Program-made: the position numbers and the translations under genes | Assembly: GCF_004138325.1 (NCBI RefSeq) | Contig: NZ_SBLB01000005.1 | Coordinates: 558,001 to 622,000 of the forward strand | Direction: 5' to 3' | DNA length: 64,000 bases | DNA from: Spirosoma sordidisoli | GTDB lineage: Bacteria; Bacteroidota; Bacteroidia; Cytophagales; Spirosomataceae | Shown here: one piece after another, positions 56,871-63,847 of the stretch | How the letters are laid out: every line of letters begins with the position of its first letter | How positions within the stretch are numbered: position 1 is the first letter of the stretch | The notes under the pieces: model-generated | Seen by the model: only the letters and a program-made list of their open reading frames with translations | What the model was told of the DNA's origin: nothing | Databases searched by the model: none

Positions 56871-57770
56871 CTAGTCCCGGCGTTTGTAATGCTGGCGCGC
56901 AAAGCGCATGAACGTATCGGGCAATCCTTCGCTGACGCCCTGCAACTGGATGGAATAGAACTCGCGGTTAATGGTCAGGTTCTGCACGTCAACGATCTTG
57001 AGCGTACCGGCCCGTAGTTCTTCCTGAACCGCAAATACCGACACAAACGCGATGCAGCGCGAATAGCTAAGGTAGGATTTGATACCTTCGGTGCTGCCCA
57101 ACTGCATCTCGATGGTGAGGTCAGTCAGTTTGATGCCCTGCCCCCGGAGCGCGTGTTCGATCACTTCGAGCGAGCCCGAACCGCGTTCGCGCAGCAGAAT
57201 AGGAGTAGCCTTCAGCTCATCGAGGGTGATCTCGTCGCGGTCGGCCAGCGGGTGGTCGGCGCGGCAGATCAGTACCAGTTCGTCTTTGACGAACGGGGTA
57301 TAGCGGATGTCGCTGTGGTGGGTTCGGCCCTCTACCAGCCCCAGGTCGATATCGTTCCGGAGCAGCGCCTGCTCGATCTGTTCGGTATTGCCGTTCAGCA
57401 GCGAAATGCTGACATCGACCGACTGTTCATGAAAGCGGGCCAGGATAGGTGGGATAACATATTGGGCTACGGTCGTACTGGCGCCGAGCCGAAGCGCACC
57501 GCCCGGTTCGCCTTTGAGCGCGTTCATGTCGAACTCCAGCTGTCGGTAGGTAGCCATAATGGTTTCGGCATGACGCAGCAGCAGGCTACCGGCGGCCGTC
57601 AGGCTGATTTGGTTACCGCGCCGGTCGAACAGGGCCGTACCGAACTGGTGCTCCAGCTCCTGAATGTGTTTGGTTACGGCGGGCTGCGTCACGTACAGCT
57701 CGGCCGCAGCTTTGGTAAAGCTGAGCCGCTTGGCAACGGTATAAAAAACGTTCAGGCGAAAGTCGAGCAT
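56871..57770 (-). CDS. LysR-family transcriptional regulator
   Basis: The 299-residue protein begins with the LysR winged helix: LNVFYTVAKRLSFTKAAAEL, YVTQPAVTKHIQELEHQFGT. The effector-binding domain follows, with GALRLGASTTVAQYVIPPIL and DLGLVEGRTHHSDI, resembling the CysL/CysB-type branch. Its start is 1 nt after the stop of the DUF3226 gene, so the two are very likely co-transcribed. That is unusual, because LysR genes commonly stand divergent from their targets. Whether it regulates the ATPase/DUF3226 pair is inference. The downstream M28 gene could be another target. Confidence 0.92.
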   Translation of the reverse strand: MLDFRLNVFYTVAKRLSFTKAAAELYVTQPAVTKHIQELEHQFGTALFDRRGNQISLTAAGSLLLRHAETIMATYRQLEFDMNALKGEPGGALRLGASTTVAQYVIPPILARFHEQSVDVSISLLNGNTEQIEQALLRNDIDLGLVEGRTHHSDIRYTPFVKDELVLICRADHPLADRDEITLDELKATPILLRERGSGSLEVIEHALRGQGIKLTDLTIEMQLGSTEGIKSYLSYSRCIAFVSVFAVQEELRAGTLKIVDVQNLTINREFYSIQLQGVSEGLPDTFMRFARQHYKRRD

Positions 57771-57771
57771 G

Positions 57772-58425
57772 CTATGGGGTGTTGAACAGTCGGTTCAGCC
57801 AGGCAACGAAGCGCAGGCAGAGATCGGCGTCATGGTTAAGATACGTTGCCGTTATCGCTGTTCCCATCGGTTTGCCGGGCTCCTCCTGCCAGGCGAGCCA
57901 GGTATGAATAAGCGCTTTTTTTTGATGAATGAGCGGGTAACGGTTTATACCCTGTTGCTCGATGGTAGCTATAATTTGTTGAGCATGTACGTGTAGACGG
58001 TCATCGGCAGGAATCAATCGCTCCACAAAGTGCTCCAGCATACCGGGGGTGGTTACGTTGTCGGGCATCAGCCAGATGCCAATTGTCGGATTTCGGCCAT
58101 CGCCCGTAATCAGGGTCCCATTCGAGTTGGGTGAAGCCGTTACCTGATACGATTTGCCAAGCAGGACCTGACGTATGCTATCCCAGCGTGCCTGCAAATC
58201 AGCGTCTGCATCGAGCAGGACCCCAATCACATCGACGGTAGGTCGCTGCCGCAGGATCTGCGCGGTAAGTTGATCGGCTATCTTGTCGACGCCCTGACAG
58301 TCGATGATCTCGAAATTATCATCCAGGCGGTGTTTGTCCCGAATGCTGGCTACAACGAATAAATCATCTTTGCCTTCAACGAGCAGTTTGAACGGAAGTT
58401 TTTTGCGGTCAATATACGTACTCAT
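57772..58425 (-). CDS. DUF3226 Toprim-like protein (putative nuclease subunit)
   Basis: The 217-residue protein shows a Toprim-type site: the glutamate in LLVEGKDD (Glu17) and the acidic triad GVLLDADAD (Asp72, 74, 76). It then has the DUF3226 blocks TIGIWLMPDN, GMLEHFV and KALIHTWLAWQEEPGKPMG. The Toprim site coordinates metal for DNA or RNA cleavage in OLD nucleases, RNase M5 and the AriB subunit of PARIS. It overlaps the AAA ATPase gene by 4 nt (ATGA), which shows tight coupling. The pair has the layout of OLD/PARIS-type defence systems, but DUF3226 is a different Toprim family from the described partners. Nuclease activity is inference. Confidence 0.8.
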   Translation of the reverse strand: MSTYIDRKKLPFKLLVEGKDDLFVVASIRDKHRLDDNFEIIDCQGVDKIADQLTAQILRQRPTVDVIGVLLDADADLQARWDSIRQVLLGKSYQVTASPNSNGTLITGDGRNPTIGIWLMPDNVTTPGMLEHFVERLIPADDRLHVHAQQIIATIEQQGINRYPLIHQKKALIHTWLAWQEEPGKPMGTAITATYLNHDADLCLRFVAWLNRLFNTP

Positions 58426-59489
58426 CGGGGGTCAACCTGAACGCGGGTGGTAGCCTGAATATCGTCGGCATCATAAACGGTTGCCACAATGTTGTCTTCA
58501 TAGTTTTCGAGCCGGATCATGGTACCAGAGTCGGGGGGCAGCGACCCGGCGTTGAGGACGGCTGAGAAAGCGTCAACGCAGTCGAGACTATGCGTCGTGG
58601 CAAAAACCTGGATGTTGAGCCGCTCAGCCAGCGAAAAGATAACTTCCCACAATTTCTCCTGAACGGAATAATGCAGGCCATTTTCAAATTCGTCGATCAG
58701 CAGGTATCCGTTTTCGCAATTAACCATGGCAAGAATGATTGCCAGAATTCGGTTGATACCATCGCCCATTGAGCGGAGAGGAAGTTGCTGATTGCTATCT
58801 TCCAGCCGCACTATTGGATACCGCTTATTGCTCACAATATCGGTTCTGAAGTTTAGTTTGCTAACTCTGGGGTCAATGATCCTGAGTGCGTATATAACCT
58901 CTTCTTCCCAATCAGTTGTGGCAATTTCGTCGTAGAGGTGCCCTACGTTTACGGTGTTGATTTCGTTCGAGCGGATGAACTGGGTTTTGATGTCTCGAGG
59001 CTGCAGAAACGAAAAATCGCTTCGCGTTTTGGCATCGAGTATGTGGTAAGGCTGTATGATATTGTGATCTGCGTCAGAGTCTACTTCAAAAAATAACAGC
59101 TTCCTGGTCGGTGTTATCTCTACTTCCGAAGGGGCTGGCTCCATCAGACGCAGACTAAGCGTTAACTGACTTTTTATACCGTTCCGGTCAGTGGTAATCT
59201 GAGCTGAATCTTCTTTTGTACGGCTTACGCGGTTGGTAAACAGGGATGCCAGCAGCGCCTGAGCGCGTAGTTGCGGATCTTCAGATGTTGATTCAAACGT
59301 GCCATCTCTGGTTTCCAGTATCTCATATATAGTCTGGAACCGCCCGTAGTTGGCCCATACATAAATTGCCTCCAGTACCGACGTCTTACCCGTGTTGTTC
59401 TTGCCAACCAGCAAGTTTACCCGCCCTAGCTTCCCGATGGTCAGGTGACGCAGGTTGCGGTAGTTTCGGATGTCGAGAGAGCGTAACAT
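58422..59489 (-). CDS. AAA ATPase (OLD/AAA_15-AAA_21 type)
   Basis: The 355-residue protein is an ABC-like SMC-type ATPase: LDIRNYRNLRHLTIGKLGRV, Walker A GKNNTGKTS (29-37), a signature-like LRSMGDGINRI (about 238-248), Walker B YLLIDEFENGLHY (Asp266, Glu267) and switch His in ATTHSLD (His300). The length fits stand-alone ATPases of OLD-type systems, whose nuclease domain here would be the separate DUF3226 protein. It starts the minus-strand set ATPase-DUF3226-LysR. The coding stretch looks more A/T-rich than the GC-rich genes around it, which hints at acquisition by transfer. A role in sensing phage or damaged DNA is inference. Confidence 0.9.
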   Translation of the reverse strand: MLRSLDIRNYRNLRHLTIGKLGRVNLLVGKNNTGKTSVLEAIYVWANYGRFQTIYEILETRDGTFESTSEDPQLRAQALLASLFTNRVSRTKEDSAQITTDRNGIKSQLTLSLRLMEPAPSEVEITPTRKLLFFEVDSDADHNIIQPYHILDAKTRSDFSFLQPRDIKTQFIRSNEINTVNVGHLYDEIATTDWEEEVIYALRIIDPRVSKLNFRTDIVSNKRYPIVRLEDSNQQLPLRSMGDGINRILAIILAMVNCENGYLLIDEFENGLHYSVQEKLWEVIFSLAERLNIQVFATTHSLDCVDAFSAVLNAGSLPPDSGTMIRLENYEDNIVATVYDADDIQATTRVQVDPR

Positions 59490-59562
59490 GGTTGTTAATG
59501 TTAATACCAGTCAAAGTACGGGTTAATACGAATACGAACAAAAAGCAGCACCTACTGGCTTC

Positions 59563-60594
59563 TCAGGTAGCCGTTCCGGTGTCGCGTCGCCAGATGAATC
59601 CGTCCAGTACGTAATGCGTTGCCTGCGGAAGGGCCAGCAGCGGAACCAGTAACGCGAGCAGCCAGTCGCTCTGAACGGTCGGCAGCGCCTGGAAGCTGCC
59701 GAATACAGCCCCGTGTTCGCGCCAGACCAGCCCGTCCCAGAAGCCTTCTTCCAGATACGCCAGCCCGATCACGACGCCCAGAAAAAGGACCAGACGCAGC
59801 CATACGCGCTGCGCCAGCGCCGACCGGCGCCTGAACCGGGGCGGGTTGGTGAGCCAGATCAGGGCCAGATACGGAATGCCGTGCGATACGACGTTGAGCA
59901 GGGTAAACGCCAGATCGCCGTTGAGGTAAACAATACCGACGTACCACGACAGGGCTGTACCGAGCACCAGCAGGTTGCGGGGCAGGTTAACGGTGCCGTA
60001 TCGGAAACCCGTGACCAGCTCTTTCGCCAGATACAGGCCGAGCAGACCCACGTACAGAAGCGTAGCTACCGCCCGACCCAGGGGCCAGTCGATCTGCCAG
60101 AAATCGCCGTCGGTAAACCAGTTGAAATTGCGGTCGGGTGTCAGGTGCCAGATCAGCAGCGGATAAAGCGTGGCAGCATAGATCGTTATGGCGTCGAGCC
60201 AGGCAAATCGACCCGATTCGGTACGGGCATAGAGCCGTAAAAAGCCGTACTGCTGCCGGACGAAATGGAAAACCGCCAGATAGGCCAGCGCCCGCCAGAA
60301 TACCCCCGCGCCCAGGCTGTGCAGCCCAACGCCGATGAGATAACAGATGACCGGTACCCCAACGAACAGCCACCGCTGCCGCCGAAACCGCGCCCGGTCG
60401 AAGTAGGTGCGAAACAGGGTGCTGTATACATGCGCCACATCGATCAGGACGACGAGCAAGAACCAGCTCACCACCGGCATGTCGGTGGTGGTCCGGTAGC
60501 GGTCGGGCAGGAGCGCTACGATCAGCAGGGCTATAAACGGCGGCATCAGGATGAACACACCATCGTAGCGCGGAGAACGAATCCAGGGTTGCAT
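59563..60594 (-). CDS. Unrecognised polytopic membrane protein
   Basis: The 343-residue protein has about eight or nine hydrophobic segments, for example VFILMPPFIALLIVALLPD, WFLLVVLIDVAHVYSTLF and LALIWLTNPPRF just after a loop. Histidines recur within or next to the membrane: IDVAHVYST, AVFHFVRQQYGFLRLY, VVSHGIPYLAL and PQATHYVLDGFIW. This pattern suggests a metal- or haem-binding or lipid-modifying membrane enzyme, but I do not recognise the family. It follows the FAD oxidoreductase by 6 nt and is the last gene of the spermidine-synthase-like operon. Confidence 0.8.
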   Translation of the reverse strand: MQPWIRSPRYDGVFILMPPFIALLIVALLPDRYRTTTDMPVVSWFLLVVLIDVAHVYSTLFRTYFDRARFRRQRWLFVGVPVICYLIGVGLHSLGAGVFWRALAYLAVFHFVRQQYGFLRLYARTESGRFAWLDAITIYAATLYPLLIWHLTPDRNFNWFTDGDFWQIDWPLGRAVATLLYVGLLGLYLAKELVTGFRYGTVNLPRNLLVLGTALSWYVGIVYLNGDLAFTLLNVVSHGIPYLALIWLTNPPRFRRRSALAQRVWLRLVLFLGVVIGLAYLEEGFWDGLVWREHGAVFGSFQALPTVQSDWLLALLVPLLALPQATHYVLDGFIWRRDTGTAT

Positions 60595-60600
60595 GGGCCG

Positions 60601-62277
60601 TCAGACGGGGTTGGTGGATGGGTGCAGTGCCTGAACTATTTCGCGGGCGGCCCGGATGCCCTGATAAAAGGCTTCTTCAAACAGAGATACCCCGCTCAGG
60701 TCCGAATGGGCGAAAAACAGCTGCTTGCCGATCGGACGCATGGCCTGCTGCCGTGCCTCTCCCCAGACGAAGCCGGGCGTGGGCGCCACCATGCCATGCC
60801 CCCATAGCTGCACATCGACCCGCTCAACAGAGGGCGTAACGCCGGGGTGTAGCGTCTCCAGCTCGGCCAGCACCTGCTGAACCCAGTCTGCGTAGGTCGA
60901 CTGGTAGGCGCGTCGGCGGGCTTCGTGGGGCGGGGCGTCGGTAAGGGGCCAGTAGAGGGTTATAACCCGTTTGGGCTGGTCGCTCACGTCCTGATGGTTG
61001 GCGGTGATATAGCCTACCGAGGCCGTATTGTAGCCGACGTTATCCCAGCAGAGAGGCATACCGCCACCCTGAGGGAGGCTGTTGACGGTCAGGTTGGCTA
61101 CCAGCCAGGGCGCGTTATGGACCCGATCGGCGAAGGCGGCCCGGTCGGGAGCCAGGGACCTGAGCAGTGATTTCGTTACAAACTGCGGAGTGGCCAGCAG
61201 CACCGCCTTCGCCCGGATGGCGATAGTCTGTTGGGCGGTCACGTCATAGCACAGCACCCGAACCTCGTCCTGCTGAGGCTGAATAGCATAGGCCAGATGA
61301 TGAGTCAGCAGGTTCGGCTGTTCCGGTGGGCTGTCGACGGACTGGCGGAGGTGGTCGAGCAGAAAGCCGTTTCCCTGGGGCCAGGTCAGCACATCGCTGG
61401 ATGCAACGAGGCCTCCCGTCTGCGTACGGCCCTGGCCTTTCCGGGCGGCAAAATAATGCAGCCCGGCCCAGGCCGATACCGTTTCGGGGGTGGCGCCGTA
61501 GTCGTCACGGCATGCATAGGTCAGGTACCAGCGCAGATAGGGCGAGGTGTACCCGTGCTGGTCGAGGTAATCGGCGAAGGTGACGGTATCCAGCGCCCGA
61601 AAAGTAAGGTCGGCCGATGATTGGTCGAGCGGAATGGCAAACGCATCGCGACCATCCTGCCCTTTGGCCTGTTTCAGGGTGTCGATGAGGGCGAAGAAGC
61701 GCGCCAGCTGCGCCCGGTCACTGGCCGGAACCCCCCGCTCCGGCACCAGCCCTTCCTGCCAGTGCCCGTCAATGAGCAGTCGTTCCTGTGGGTCGTGGCA
61801 GAGGTGGTATTCGTTGTAGATGGGCTGACCCTGGTCGGTATGTCCCGTTATGGTGCCGGTGTCGCGCAGAAAATCGATCAGTTCGGTGTTGCGCGGATCG
61901 GGTATGGGCAGGTAGTGCGCCCCCCAGGGGTAAGCCGATACGGTGTTCTGGCCGTGGCTCGAATTACCGCCGGTTTGCTCGTCGAGTTCAACCAGCAGCG
62001 TATCGGAAAGCCCCTGCCGGTGCAGCCACCGCCGGGCCGACAAACCGGCTATACCACCGCCTATGATCAGCACATCGACAGTTCGGTTGCGGGTGGGTGC
62101 CGGAAACGTCATGCCTCCGCGCAGCAGGTGACCGACCGCCTGGTTGGCGCCACGCAGCTGACCCGCTATGGGTACCCGGGCAGTAGTCGACCGGCAGCTT
62201 TCCAGGGCCCAGGGGCCGGCCAGCAGGCTCGCCAGGCCAAGCCCCGTCTGCTGCAGAAAAAATCGGCGGGTTGGCAT
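60601..62277 (-). CDS. Exported FAD-dependent amine oxidase-like protein
   Basis: The 558-residue protein begins MPTRRFFLQQTGLGLASLLA, a twin-arginine signal followed by a possible lipobox (ALESC). The FAD fold is VDVLIIGGGIAGLSARRWL, then ELDEQTGGNSSHGQN, and the C-terminal flavin segment LFFAHSDLSGVSLFEEAFYQG. The family is the flavin-containing amine oxidase/NAD(P)-binding Rossmann type. The ATG at 62277 is preferred since it avoids overlap with the upstream gene and puts the Tat motif first. It sits between a spermidine-synthase-like gene and an unknown membrane gene, so a polyamine-related substrate is possible but unproven. Confidence 0.85.
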   Translation of the reverse strand: MPTRRFFLQQTGLGLASLLAGPWALESCRSTTARVPIAGQLRGANQAVGHLLRGGMTFPAPTRNRTVDVLIIGGGIAGLSARRWLHRQGLSDTLLVELDEQTGGNSSHGQNTVSAYPWGAHYLPIPDPRNTELIDFLRDTGTITGHTDQGQPIYNEYHLCHDPQERLLIDGHWQEGLVPERGVPASDRAQLARFFALIDTLKQAKGQDGRDAFAIPLDQSSADLTFRALDTVTFADYLDQHGYTSPYLRWYLTYACRDDYGATPETVSAWAGLHYFAARKGQGRTQTGGLVASSDVLTWPQGNGFLLDHLRQSVDSPPEQPNLLTHHLAYAIQPQQDEVRVLCYDVTAQQTIAIRAKAVLLATPQFVTKSLLRSLAPDRAAFADRVHNAPWLVANLTVNSLPQGGGMPLCWDNVGYNTASVGYITANHQDVSDQPKRVITLYWPLTDAPPHEARRRAYQSTYADWVQQVLAELETLHPGVTPSVERVDVQLWGHGMVAPTPGFVWGEARQQAMRPIGKQLFFAHSDLSGVSLFEEAFYQGIRAAREIVQALHPSTNPV

Positions 62278-62281
62278 CGGC

Positions 62282-63847
62282 TTAGTGGCTGTAGGGGCCC
62301 CAGTCATCGTCAAAATAACGAACCAGCGCCTGGTTGTTGAGTCGGTTAATGTCGGTGGGGAGTTCGGCCATGTCGGTGGGGAAGTGGGTCAGGTCGGCCA
62401 GGGTTCGGACGTTGATATAGCGCAGCCCGGCCGGAAGCCTGACGGCGCGATGAACCGGCGATAGCGGCCGGTTTCGGGCGGCCAGCACATAGCCCCACTC
62501 CCCAAACGACGGTACGTAGGCATGGTAGGGCAGGGTCCGGAACCCAACGGCCCCGAGGGTATGTGCAATACACCAGAACGAGCGCCGGGCTACGTAGGGT
62601 GAGGTCGACTGAACCACCACGACGCCGTTTGCCGACAGAAGCTTGTCGAGCTCGCTGTAGAAAGCGGTGCTGTACAGTTTACCGATCGAATAGTTGGCCG
62701 GGTCGGGAAAGTCGACCACGATCAGGTCGTAGCGGCTGGTGTCCTGCCGAACGAACAGAAACGCATCGGCATTGAGCACCTGCACCTTCGGCGACAGCAG
62801 CGACCGCTGGTTCAGCGCCAGCAGCATCTCGTTCTGCTGAAACAGCTGCGTCATGCCGGGGTCAAGGTCAACGAGCCGGATGGCATCGAGTTGCGGATAT
62901 TTCAGCAGCTCCCGTACCGCCAGCCCGTCACCACCGCCCAGTACCAGCACCCGCCGGGCCGACGGATTTTGCTGCATGGCCGGATGAATAAGGGCTTCGT
63001 GGTAGCGATACTCATCGGCCGACGAAAATTGCAGGTTGCCGTTCAGGAACAGCCGCCATTCGCGGGCGTTGCGCGTCAGCACAATGCGCTGGTACTGGGT
63101 GGTTTTACTATAGATGACCTTGTCCTGAAACGCCAGGCTTTCGGTATAGGTCATGATCCGGTCGGCTCCCACGAACCCGACCAGCATCAGCCCCGACGCG
63201 ACGATCATAGTCAGGGTGAAGCTGCGCCGGTAGGGCCGCGTTTCCTGAAATCGGTACAGTACCACAGCCGCCACCGCCAGGTTGAGCAGTCCGAAAAACA
63301 GCGAGGTACGCACCAGACCCAGCTGCGGCACCAGCACCAGCGGAAAAATCAGCGAAGCCAGCAGCGCCCCGATGTAATCGAAAGTAAACACGCGCGAAAC
63401 CAGATCTTTAAAGGCGTACCGGCCTTCCAGAATCCGCATGAGCAACGGAATCTCCAGGCCGACCAGCACCCCCGTCAGCCCCACCAGCGCGTAGAGGACC
63501 ACCCGGAACGACTGCACGTATTCGAACAGCACAAACAGCAGCGGGGCCGACCAGCCGCCGACCAGGCCGACCAGTATCTCGATTCGGATAAACCACTTCA
63601 GCAGCGCTCCGTCGAGGTATTTCGAGAGCCACGAGCCAATGCCCATCGCAAACAGATAGGTACCGATGATGGTCGAAAACTGGGTAACGGAATCGCCCAG
63701 GAGGTAGCTGGCCAGCGTACCGGCAATAAGCTCGTAGATGAGTCCGCAGGTAGCAATTACAAACACCGACACCAGCAGCAGCACCGGCAGCAGGTCGGGC
63801 CGGGATGCGTTGCCGCGCGTTGATCGGGGTTGTTCTTCGCTAACCAT
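62282..63847 (-). CDS. Membrane spermidine synthase-like protein
   Basis: The 521-residue protein has about seven membrane segments (20-230), the first including ATCGLIYELIAGTLASYLLG, and a C-terminal aminopropyltransferase/methyltransferase domain with VLVLGGGDGLAVRELLKYPQ, RLVDLDPGM, ADAFLFVRQ and YDLIVVDFPDP. These are the SpeE-type motifs for decarboxylated AdoMet and putrescine binding. Such fused proteins occur with DUF350 and related membrane genes. The start overlaps the DUF350 stop by 8 nt, and the FAD gene begins 4 nt after its end. Whether it makes spermidine or modifies another amine is not known. Confidence 0.9.
   Translation of the reverse strand: MVSEEQPRSTRGNASRPDLLPVLLLVSVFVIATCGLIYELIAGTLASYLLGDSVTQFSTIIGTYLFAMGIGSWLSKYLDGALLKWFIRIEILVGLVGGWSAPLLFVLFEYVQSFRVVLYALVGLTGVLVGLEIPLLMRILEGRYAFKDLVSRVFTFDYIGALLASLIFPLVLVPQLGLVRTSLFFGLLNLAVAAVVLYRFQETRPYRRSFTLTMIVASGLMLVGFVGADRIMTYTESLAFQDKVIYSKTTQYQRIVLTRNAREWRLFLNGNLQFSSADEYRYHEALIHPAMQQNPSARRVLVLGGGDGLAVRELLKYPQLDAIRLVDLDPGMTQLFQQNEMLLALNQRSLLSPKVQVLNADAFLFVRQDTSRYDLIVVDFPDPANYSIGKLYSTAFYSELDKLLSANGVVVVQSTSPYVARRSFWCIAHTLGAVGFRTLPYHAYVPSFGEWGYVLAARNRPLSPVHRAVRLPAGLRYINVRTLADLTHFPTDMAELPTDINRLNNQALVRYFDDDWGPYSH

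Follow-up and report, generated by a model that had tools for sequence, protein, structure and literature searches.

Module replacement in an ATPase–DUF3226 gene pair of Spirosoma sordidisoli, a candidate PARIS-like immune system

A stretch of 64,000 nucleotides (nt) from Spirosoma sordidisoli, referred to here as the window and taken from a contig of 634 kb in a genome of 7.4 Mb, carries an ABC-type ATPase gene followed by a gene for a DUF3226 protein, and this pair is the subject of the present analysis. The two open reading frames (ORFs) overlap by 4 nt and, after a further gap of 1 nt, a LysR regulator gene follows on the same strand, an arrangement that agrees in its positions and spacings with an earlier note made from the letters of the window alone, which had proposed the three genes as a candidate defence system. 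The features are listed in Table 1, where the ATPase is divided into two conserved anchors, an exchangeable middle module and a C-terminal tail; amino acid identity in anchor 1 is 80–100% among 11 Spirosoma-type sequences and 59–66% between these and locus L080. L and G numbers denote loci and genomes. L057 is the copy from Spirosoma lacussanchae, the nearest relative in the compared set (LysR 99% and peptidase 98% identical), L066 and L079 are from S. spitsbergense and S. luteum, and L068 and L078 are from genomes G004 and G027.

Table 1. Features of the ATPase–DUF3226 locus, in window coordinates.
Feature	Position	Strand	Remarks
ATPase gene, ABC-type (OLD/AriA/AbiLi-like), PDC-M38A	58422..59489	-	355 aa
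DUF3226 gene, PDC-M38B, predicted Toprim fold, putative nuclease effector	57772..58425	-	217 aa
LysR gene, core-genome neighbour, outside the system	56871..57770	-	299 aa
ATPase anchor 1, aa 1-44, Walker A GKNNTGKTS	59358..59489	-	genus-conserved
Exchangeable middle module of the ATPase, aa 45-234, putative sensor of the trigger	58788..59357	-	
ATPase anchor 2, aa 235-300, MGDG, Walker B LLIDE and H300	58590..58787	-	
ATPase C-terminal tail, aa 301-355, putative docking element with arginine as last residue	58425..58589	-	
ATPase C-terminal arginine codon	58425-58427	-	arginine in 68/69 relatives
DUF3226 N-half, aa 1-100, with catalytic residues, exchangeable	58126..58425	-	window/L057, L192/L193, L137/L171
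Replaced block, window versus S. lacussanchae (L057)	57801..58600	-	
Short intergenic stretch 5' of ATPase, TTTTTG ... TACTTTG element	59490..59562	-	

In Pfam searches the ATPase matched AAA_15 (105.7 bits) and AAA_21 (76.6 bits), its partner matched DUF3226 (233.6 bits) and the regulator matched LysR_substrate (156.6 bits) and HTH_1 (75.4 bits). ATPase residues G29, K35, D266, E267 and H300 are invariant in all 69 aligned relatives from several phyla, a conservation beyond chance in the Walker A, Walker B and switch histidine named in the earlier note. In DUF3226, likewise aligned across several phyla, E17, D21 and D74 are present in 70 of 70 relatives and D72 in 69. The earlier note had named Glu17 and an Asp72/74/76 triad; E17, D72 and D74 stand, while D76 is an aspartate in just 49 of the 70, and the conserved acidic core is therefore E17/D21/D72/D74. 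The predicted structure of DUF3226 has a Toprim-like fold with the conserved glutamate and DxD motif. Sequence searches of solved structures yielded no confident DUF3226 relative: AriB chains appeared at E ~1, and an engineered protein matching over 36 residues at E 2e-5 was dismissed as a chance hit. The hypothetical protein PH0156 of Pyrococcus horikoshii (PDB 2p62), counted among the nearest known counterparts, is 17% identical to DUF3226 and did not appear at E <= 1 when the DUF3226 profile was searched.

Among 84,980 species genomes scanned, 285 DUF3226 relatives were detected, the best 80 of which were analysed as loci. The linkage of the two genes is near-obligate, with an ATPase ORF located on the same strand at most 200 nt upstream of DUF3226 in 76 of the 80, in most cases with an overlap of 1 or 4 nt between the ORFs. 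For L100 and L162 an ATPase lies 356 and 332 nt upstream, respectively, of a shortened DUF3226 ORF, L126 starts 153 nt into its contig, and no ATPase was detectable at L141. A second and more distant DUF3226 branch shows the 4-nt overlap in seven of seven loci, and two further copies from distant branches, L203 and L204, are also accompanied by an ATPase. Both the lack of a Toprim fold and the prevalence of partnerless DUF3226 genes had been named beforehand as grounds for abandoning the proposal, and the fold and the partner were both found. The hosts of the 80 loci include Bacteroidota, Cyanobacteria, Chloroflexota and Planctomycetes. Within the family of the window genome, DUF3226 matches occur in 42 of 222 genomes and 14 of 36 genera, and within the genus the main-branch pair is present in 12 of 36 genomes, rising to 16 when both branches are counted. 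Interrupted copies were also seen, in genera that include Runella, Siphonobacter and Dyadobacter, three with a broken DUF3226 and an open ATPase (L199/L100, L202 and L162) and one with the reverse (L195).

Comparison of closely related copies revealed three types of replacement, affecting the ATPase middle alone, the catalytic half of DUF3226 alone, or the ATPase C-terminal tail together with most of DUF3226. The last type distinguishes the window from S. lacussanchae, where nucleotide identity is 41–71% over approximately the block given in Table 1, and mostly 87–99% in the flanks out to the compared ends, with a lowest 100-nt block of 80–81%. At the protein level the ATPase middle is 95% identical, the tail 24% and the DUF3226 N-half 35%, and the replaced segment of L057 is instead similar to those of L077, L068 and L078 (tail 67–71%, N-half 65–76%). 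Replacement of the middle alone is seen for L066/L079, with LysR 97%, tail 87%, DUF3226 92–98% and middle 21% identical, and for L068/L078, where the corresponding values are 99%, 91%, 98% and 22%. In Siphonobacter, the ATPase middle of L202 is unalignable with those of L192 and L193 (28%) within flanks of 80–88% identity, and in the distant-branch copies L203 and L204, which derive from two genera, a middle of 40% identity lies between aligned DNA of 84–88% although their outer flanks fail to align. The DUF3226 half alone differs between L192 and L193, where the ATPase middle is 99% and the tail 93% identical but the N-half only 48%, with nucleotide identities of 0.44–0.72 over the first 300 nt of the gene.

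A further example of this type comes from gut Bacteroidales, where L137 and L171 share a cassette that is about 95–100% identical in most 100-nt blocks and lies in unrelated flanks, except for a patch of about 200 nt, 58–68% identical, over DUF3226 codons ~33–100. The near-identical 2-kb cassette was observed in L137, L135 and L171, from Parabacteroides and two metagenome-assembled genomes (MAGs), L135 and L137 being identical MAG copies that were counted once, and it points to a recent horizontal transfer with replacement of one DUF3226 patch. Swap-free pairs also exist, for example L142/L144 and L147/L172. Among 3003 pairwise comparisons of 78 systems, 31 combined a tail and DUF3226 N-half of at least 60% identity with a middle below 40%, a single one (window/L057) showed the reverse, and eight were high in all three modules. 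Replacement is therefore no peculiarity of one locus, being seen in Spirosoma, in Siphonobacter and again in gut Bacteroidales.

In approximately unbiased (AU) tests on ten sequences, trees built separately for the middle and the tail of the ATPase and for the N-half and the C-half of DUF3226 rejected one another (p <= 0.012), with the one exception that the tail data did not reject the DUF3226 N-half tree (p 0.061). Tail types match DUF3226 N-half types and, in a set of 65 non-redundant pairs spanning several phyla, identity in the tail correlated with DUF3226 N-half identity at rho 0.51, compared with 0.23, 0.31 and 0.24 for anchor 1, middle and anchor 2 of its own ATPase. Partial correlations were 0.47 for tail and N-half and 0.13 for middle and N-half, with a bootstrap difference of 0.34 (0.20 to 0.47). 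Finer cuts are less clean, the tail giving 0.38, 0.45 and 0.28 with DUF3226 residues 8–32, 33–65 and 66–100 and 0.34 with ATPase residues 171–234. Given this blurring, and the confounding adjacency of the tail and DUF3226 in the DNA, the covariation is weakened as proof of contact between the proteins; it is retained as a lead because anchor 2, which is equally adjacent to the tail, follows the middle (0.63) instead of the tail (0.24). The last residue of the ATPase is arginine in almost all relatives (Table 1), encoded by all six arginine codons and within differing gene overlaps, and it must therefore reflect a constraint on the protein.

Among known systems, the closest models are those of PDC-M38, a candidate family in PADLOC-DB, where the ATPase gave its best match to PDC-M38A (PDLC04611, 320 bits, residues 1–353) and the adjacent DUF3226 gene product to PDC-M38B (PDLC04624, 187 bits, residues 8–215). 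The second best match of the ATPase was AbiLi (PDLC02336, 215 bits, residues 1–355), with the AriA model of PARIS lower at 101 bits, whereas neither AbiLii nor AriB was among the three PADLOC families that DUF3226 matched at E <= 0.1. DUF4435, which we take to be the family of AriB, was likewise absent from the Pfam scan of the DUF3226 protein at E <= 0.1, and DUF3226 is thus a different family from the PARIS and AbiL partners, as the earlier note had maintained, while the likeness it drew to the layout of these two-subunit systems holds for a split ABC-ATPase and Toprim-fold pair. In OLD classes 1–3 and in GajA of Gabija, ATPase and Toprim are fused, whereas here each has an ORF of its own, both in the window and at the surveyed loci. 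In PARIS, a "class 4" OLD system, an AriA hexamer senses phage proteins and sequesters and then releases AriB, which cleaves host tRNAs (PMC11455837; PMC12409363); the latter also reports that AriB residues K60 and K64 are required for defence, with a predicted action on the anticodon loop, and lists AbiL with the ABC ATPase and Toprim systems. The pair fits the PDC-M38 candidate as well as the description given in reviews as split OLD or class 4 (PMC10568477), and it falls outside PARIS on its partner family.

The pair itself is not new, being already listed as PDC-M38, and the earlier label "uncharacterised" is accurate as regards experiments but not as regards its listing as a candidate. 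Searches of open-licence literature did not find DUF3226 named, any paper naming PDC-M38 together with PADLOC, or any description of module exchange in DUF3226 systems. PADLOC-DB holds models only; the exchange of modules, the types of tail and the history of the locus come from the present comparison, and the new element is how the pair evolves, by module replacement.

We consider it fairly probable that the two proteins act together in immunity as a single sensor-effector pair, PARIS-like without being PARIS, that has diversified by recombination at conserved anchors. The ATPase head, comprising anchors 1 and 2, would form an ATP-dependent assembly, the middle module would recognise an infection cue, and the C-terminal tail, with its conserved last arginine, would keep the Toprim-fold DUF3226 inactive. 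The cue would then free or activate DUF3226, which would cut nucleic acid, either tRNA or DNA, and halt the infected cell, while sensor and dock-plus-cutter would be replaced independently through recombination at the conserved anchors. By analogy with PARIS, the replaced patch of DUF3226 may set the target, with the tail restraining the nuclease and the middle sensing. More tentatively, and with somewhat less conviction than doubt, we propose that the locus creates specificity by cassette shuffling, the sensor and dock-plus-nuclease modules being exchanged independently of each other, at one chromosomal site and across species, between the ATP-binding anchors, and that the terminal arginine marks a nuclease-silencing peptide. 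If so, sensing and cutting specificities would be brought together in varying combinations by a logic resembling recognition-domain exchange in restriction systems. The sensing and nuclease-control parts of ATPase–Toprim pairs are usually resolved one structure at a time, and the near-sister genomes constitute a natural experiment, with the same flanks and nuclease but a different middle, or the same middle but a different tail and nuclease, such that natural alleles render sensor and effector specificity directly testable. PDC-M38, a listed yet unstudied candidate family, thereby gains a concrete proposed mechanism.

The apparent swaps could instead result from fast divergence under selection, or from assembly or binning artefacts, and variability is indeed found everywhere in the ATPase middle and in the N-half of DUF3226; this is nevertheless very unlikely given boundaries that are sharp to within about 100 nt, flanks of 80–99% identity, a segment in L057 that is nearer to copies from other species than to its near-sister, module trees that reject each other, and the recurrence of the pattern in several independent assemblies, some of them single-contig. 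An unlikely but more serious competitor is a DNA-cutting immune or anti-plasmid system like Gabija or OLD, in which ATPase and DUF3226 would stay together as one nuclease complex with no release step. Although the target cannot be told from fold similarity, the two domains lie on separate genes in every intact locus examined and the PADLOC ranking of the ATPase places AbiLi and AriA above GajA. A housekeeping or stress function, for example in DNA repair or growth control, would suit the location in a chromosomal block of core genes and the scarcity of phage and plasmid copies, and one member of the OLD family does act in the cell cycle (PMC12796447). Literature searches, the sole source bearing on this point, found no housekeeping function of the pair, and we regard one as quite unlikely in view of the patchy presence within genus and family, the occurrence of broken copies, the near-identical cassette in unrelated flanks, and module replacement between close genomes, which is unexpected for housekeeping genes.

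A dedicated role for LysR, as regulator within a three-gene unit, can be judged from the chromosomal site. Ten of the twelve main-branch pairs of the genus sit in one syntenic block, in the order dnaN (beyond the end of the window, and seen in G007 instead), DUF2480, ABC-transporter ATPase, M1-peptidase-domain protein, cytochrome c, 150-aa protein, the pair, LysR, DUF6044 and M28 peptidase. Six of the ten copies abut LysR, with gaps of 1, 1, 6, 3, 2 and 3 nt (G000, G007, G024, G028, G026 and G011, respectively), and LysR is probably co-transcribed in these genomes. Such proximity favours the three-gene unit, but 9.3–12.3 kb separate pair and LysR in G004, G027 and G020, G016 has lost LysR (best match 47%) so that the pair adjoins DUF6044, and the pairs of G017 and G030 lie elsewhere with no LysR within the stretches examined. 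Moreover, of 25 genomes of the genus that were searched, 24 have a LysR ortholog of 79–100% identity, and 17 of these 24 lack the main-branch pair; among the best 80 of the 285 loci, just three, all Spirosoma, have such a LysR in the vicinity of DUF3226. LysR is thus a core neighbour whose proximity is a product of the insertion site, and its membership of the system, as suggested earlier, was rejected, the three-gene unit being extremely improbable. A sigma factor and TonB-receptor set was observed between DUF3226 and LysR in L072, L078 and L068, such that the same site accepts non-defence inserts.

Among the 17 pairless LysR sites, one (G010, L074) retains the promoter-like region of the pair and then the end of DUF3226 directly before LysR, scoring 59 and 43, respectively, against the best of 200 shuffles at 29 and 22, and here the pair has been lost by deletion. 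The G017 site (L064) was also considered, its promoter-like part scoring 39 against 24 (200 shuffles) and its DUF3226-end part 18 against 23; the latter does not exceed the shuffles, and a remnant is consequently claimed for G010 alone.

Neither DUF3226 nor, at 1e-10, the ATPase was found in 50,697 phage records, DUF3226 occurred in 9 of 72,556 plasmids, and five viral contigs carried DUF3226, each with an ATPase upstream. These counts weakly support mobility of the pair, and phages or plasmids as its main vehicle in Spirosoma were rejected. In a PADLOC scan of neighbours at 35 loci, excluding large genes and Spirosoma core genes, 56 families were matched among 121 of 277 near neighbours and 14 among 121 of 135 control genes, the counts being of families rather than distinct genes, with each family in one or two genes; these numbers do not establish enrichment in defence islands. 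The higher A/T content reported for the ATPase gene is real but uneven, G+C being 0.52 for codons 1–44, 0.47 for 45–234, 0.47 for 235–300 and 0.57 for the tail, compared with 0.51–0.53 for DUF3226, 0.58 for LysR and 0.61 for the peptidase. At third codon positions, both the ATPase middle and DUF3226 have a lower G+C than LysR wherever a LysR is present among the 12 genus-level and order-level copies compared.

The intergenic stretch preceding the ATPase likely carries the promoter of the pair, on the basis of what we take to be the Bacteroidota promoter consensus, and its TTTTTG ... TACTTTG element resembles the CGTATTTTG element that precedes most copies in the genus. At six of the 17 pairless sites (L059, L065, L069, L070, L071 and L075, counted by eye), TAANTTTG lies within about 12 nt of the LysR start, and three further sites carry it with one change. 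It overlaps the stop codon of the preceding gene and is missing in the copies where the pair abuts LysR (around 57771 in the window); assuming a similar consensus, it is possibly LysR's own promoter, replaced by that of the pair. Upstream of the pair, at 59563–63847 on the minus strand, lie genes for an unnamed membrane-type protein, an FAD-oxidoreductase-like protein and a spermidine-synthase domain protein. Among the loci compared, these three are shared at this site with G007 alone, and homologues of the first (60–62%) are present in G004, G013 and G015.
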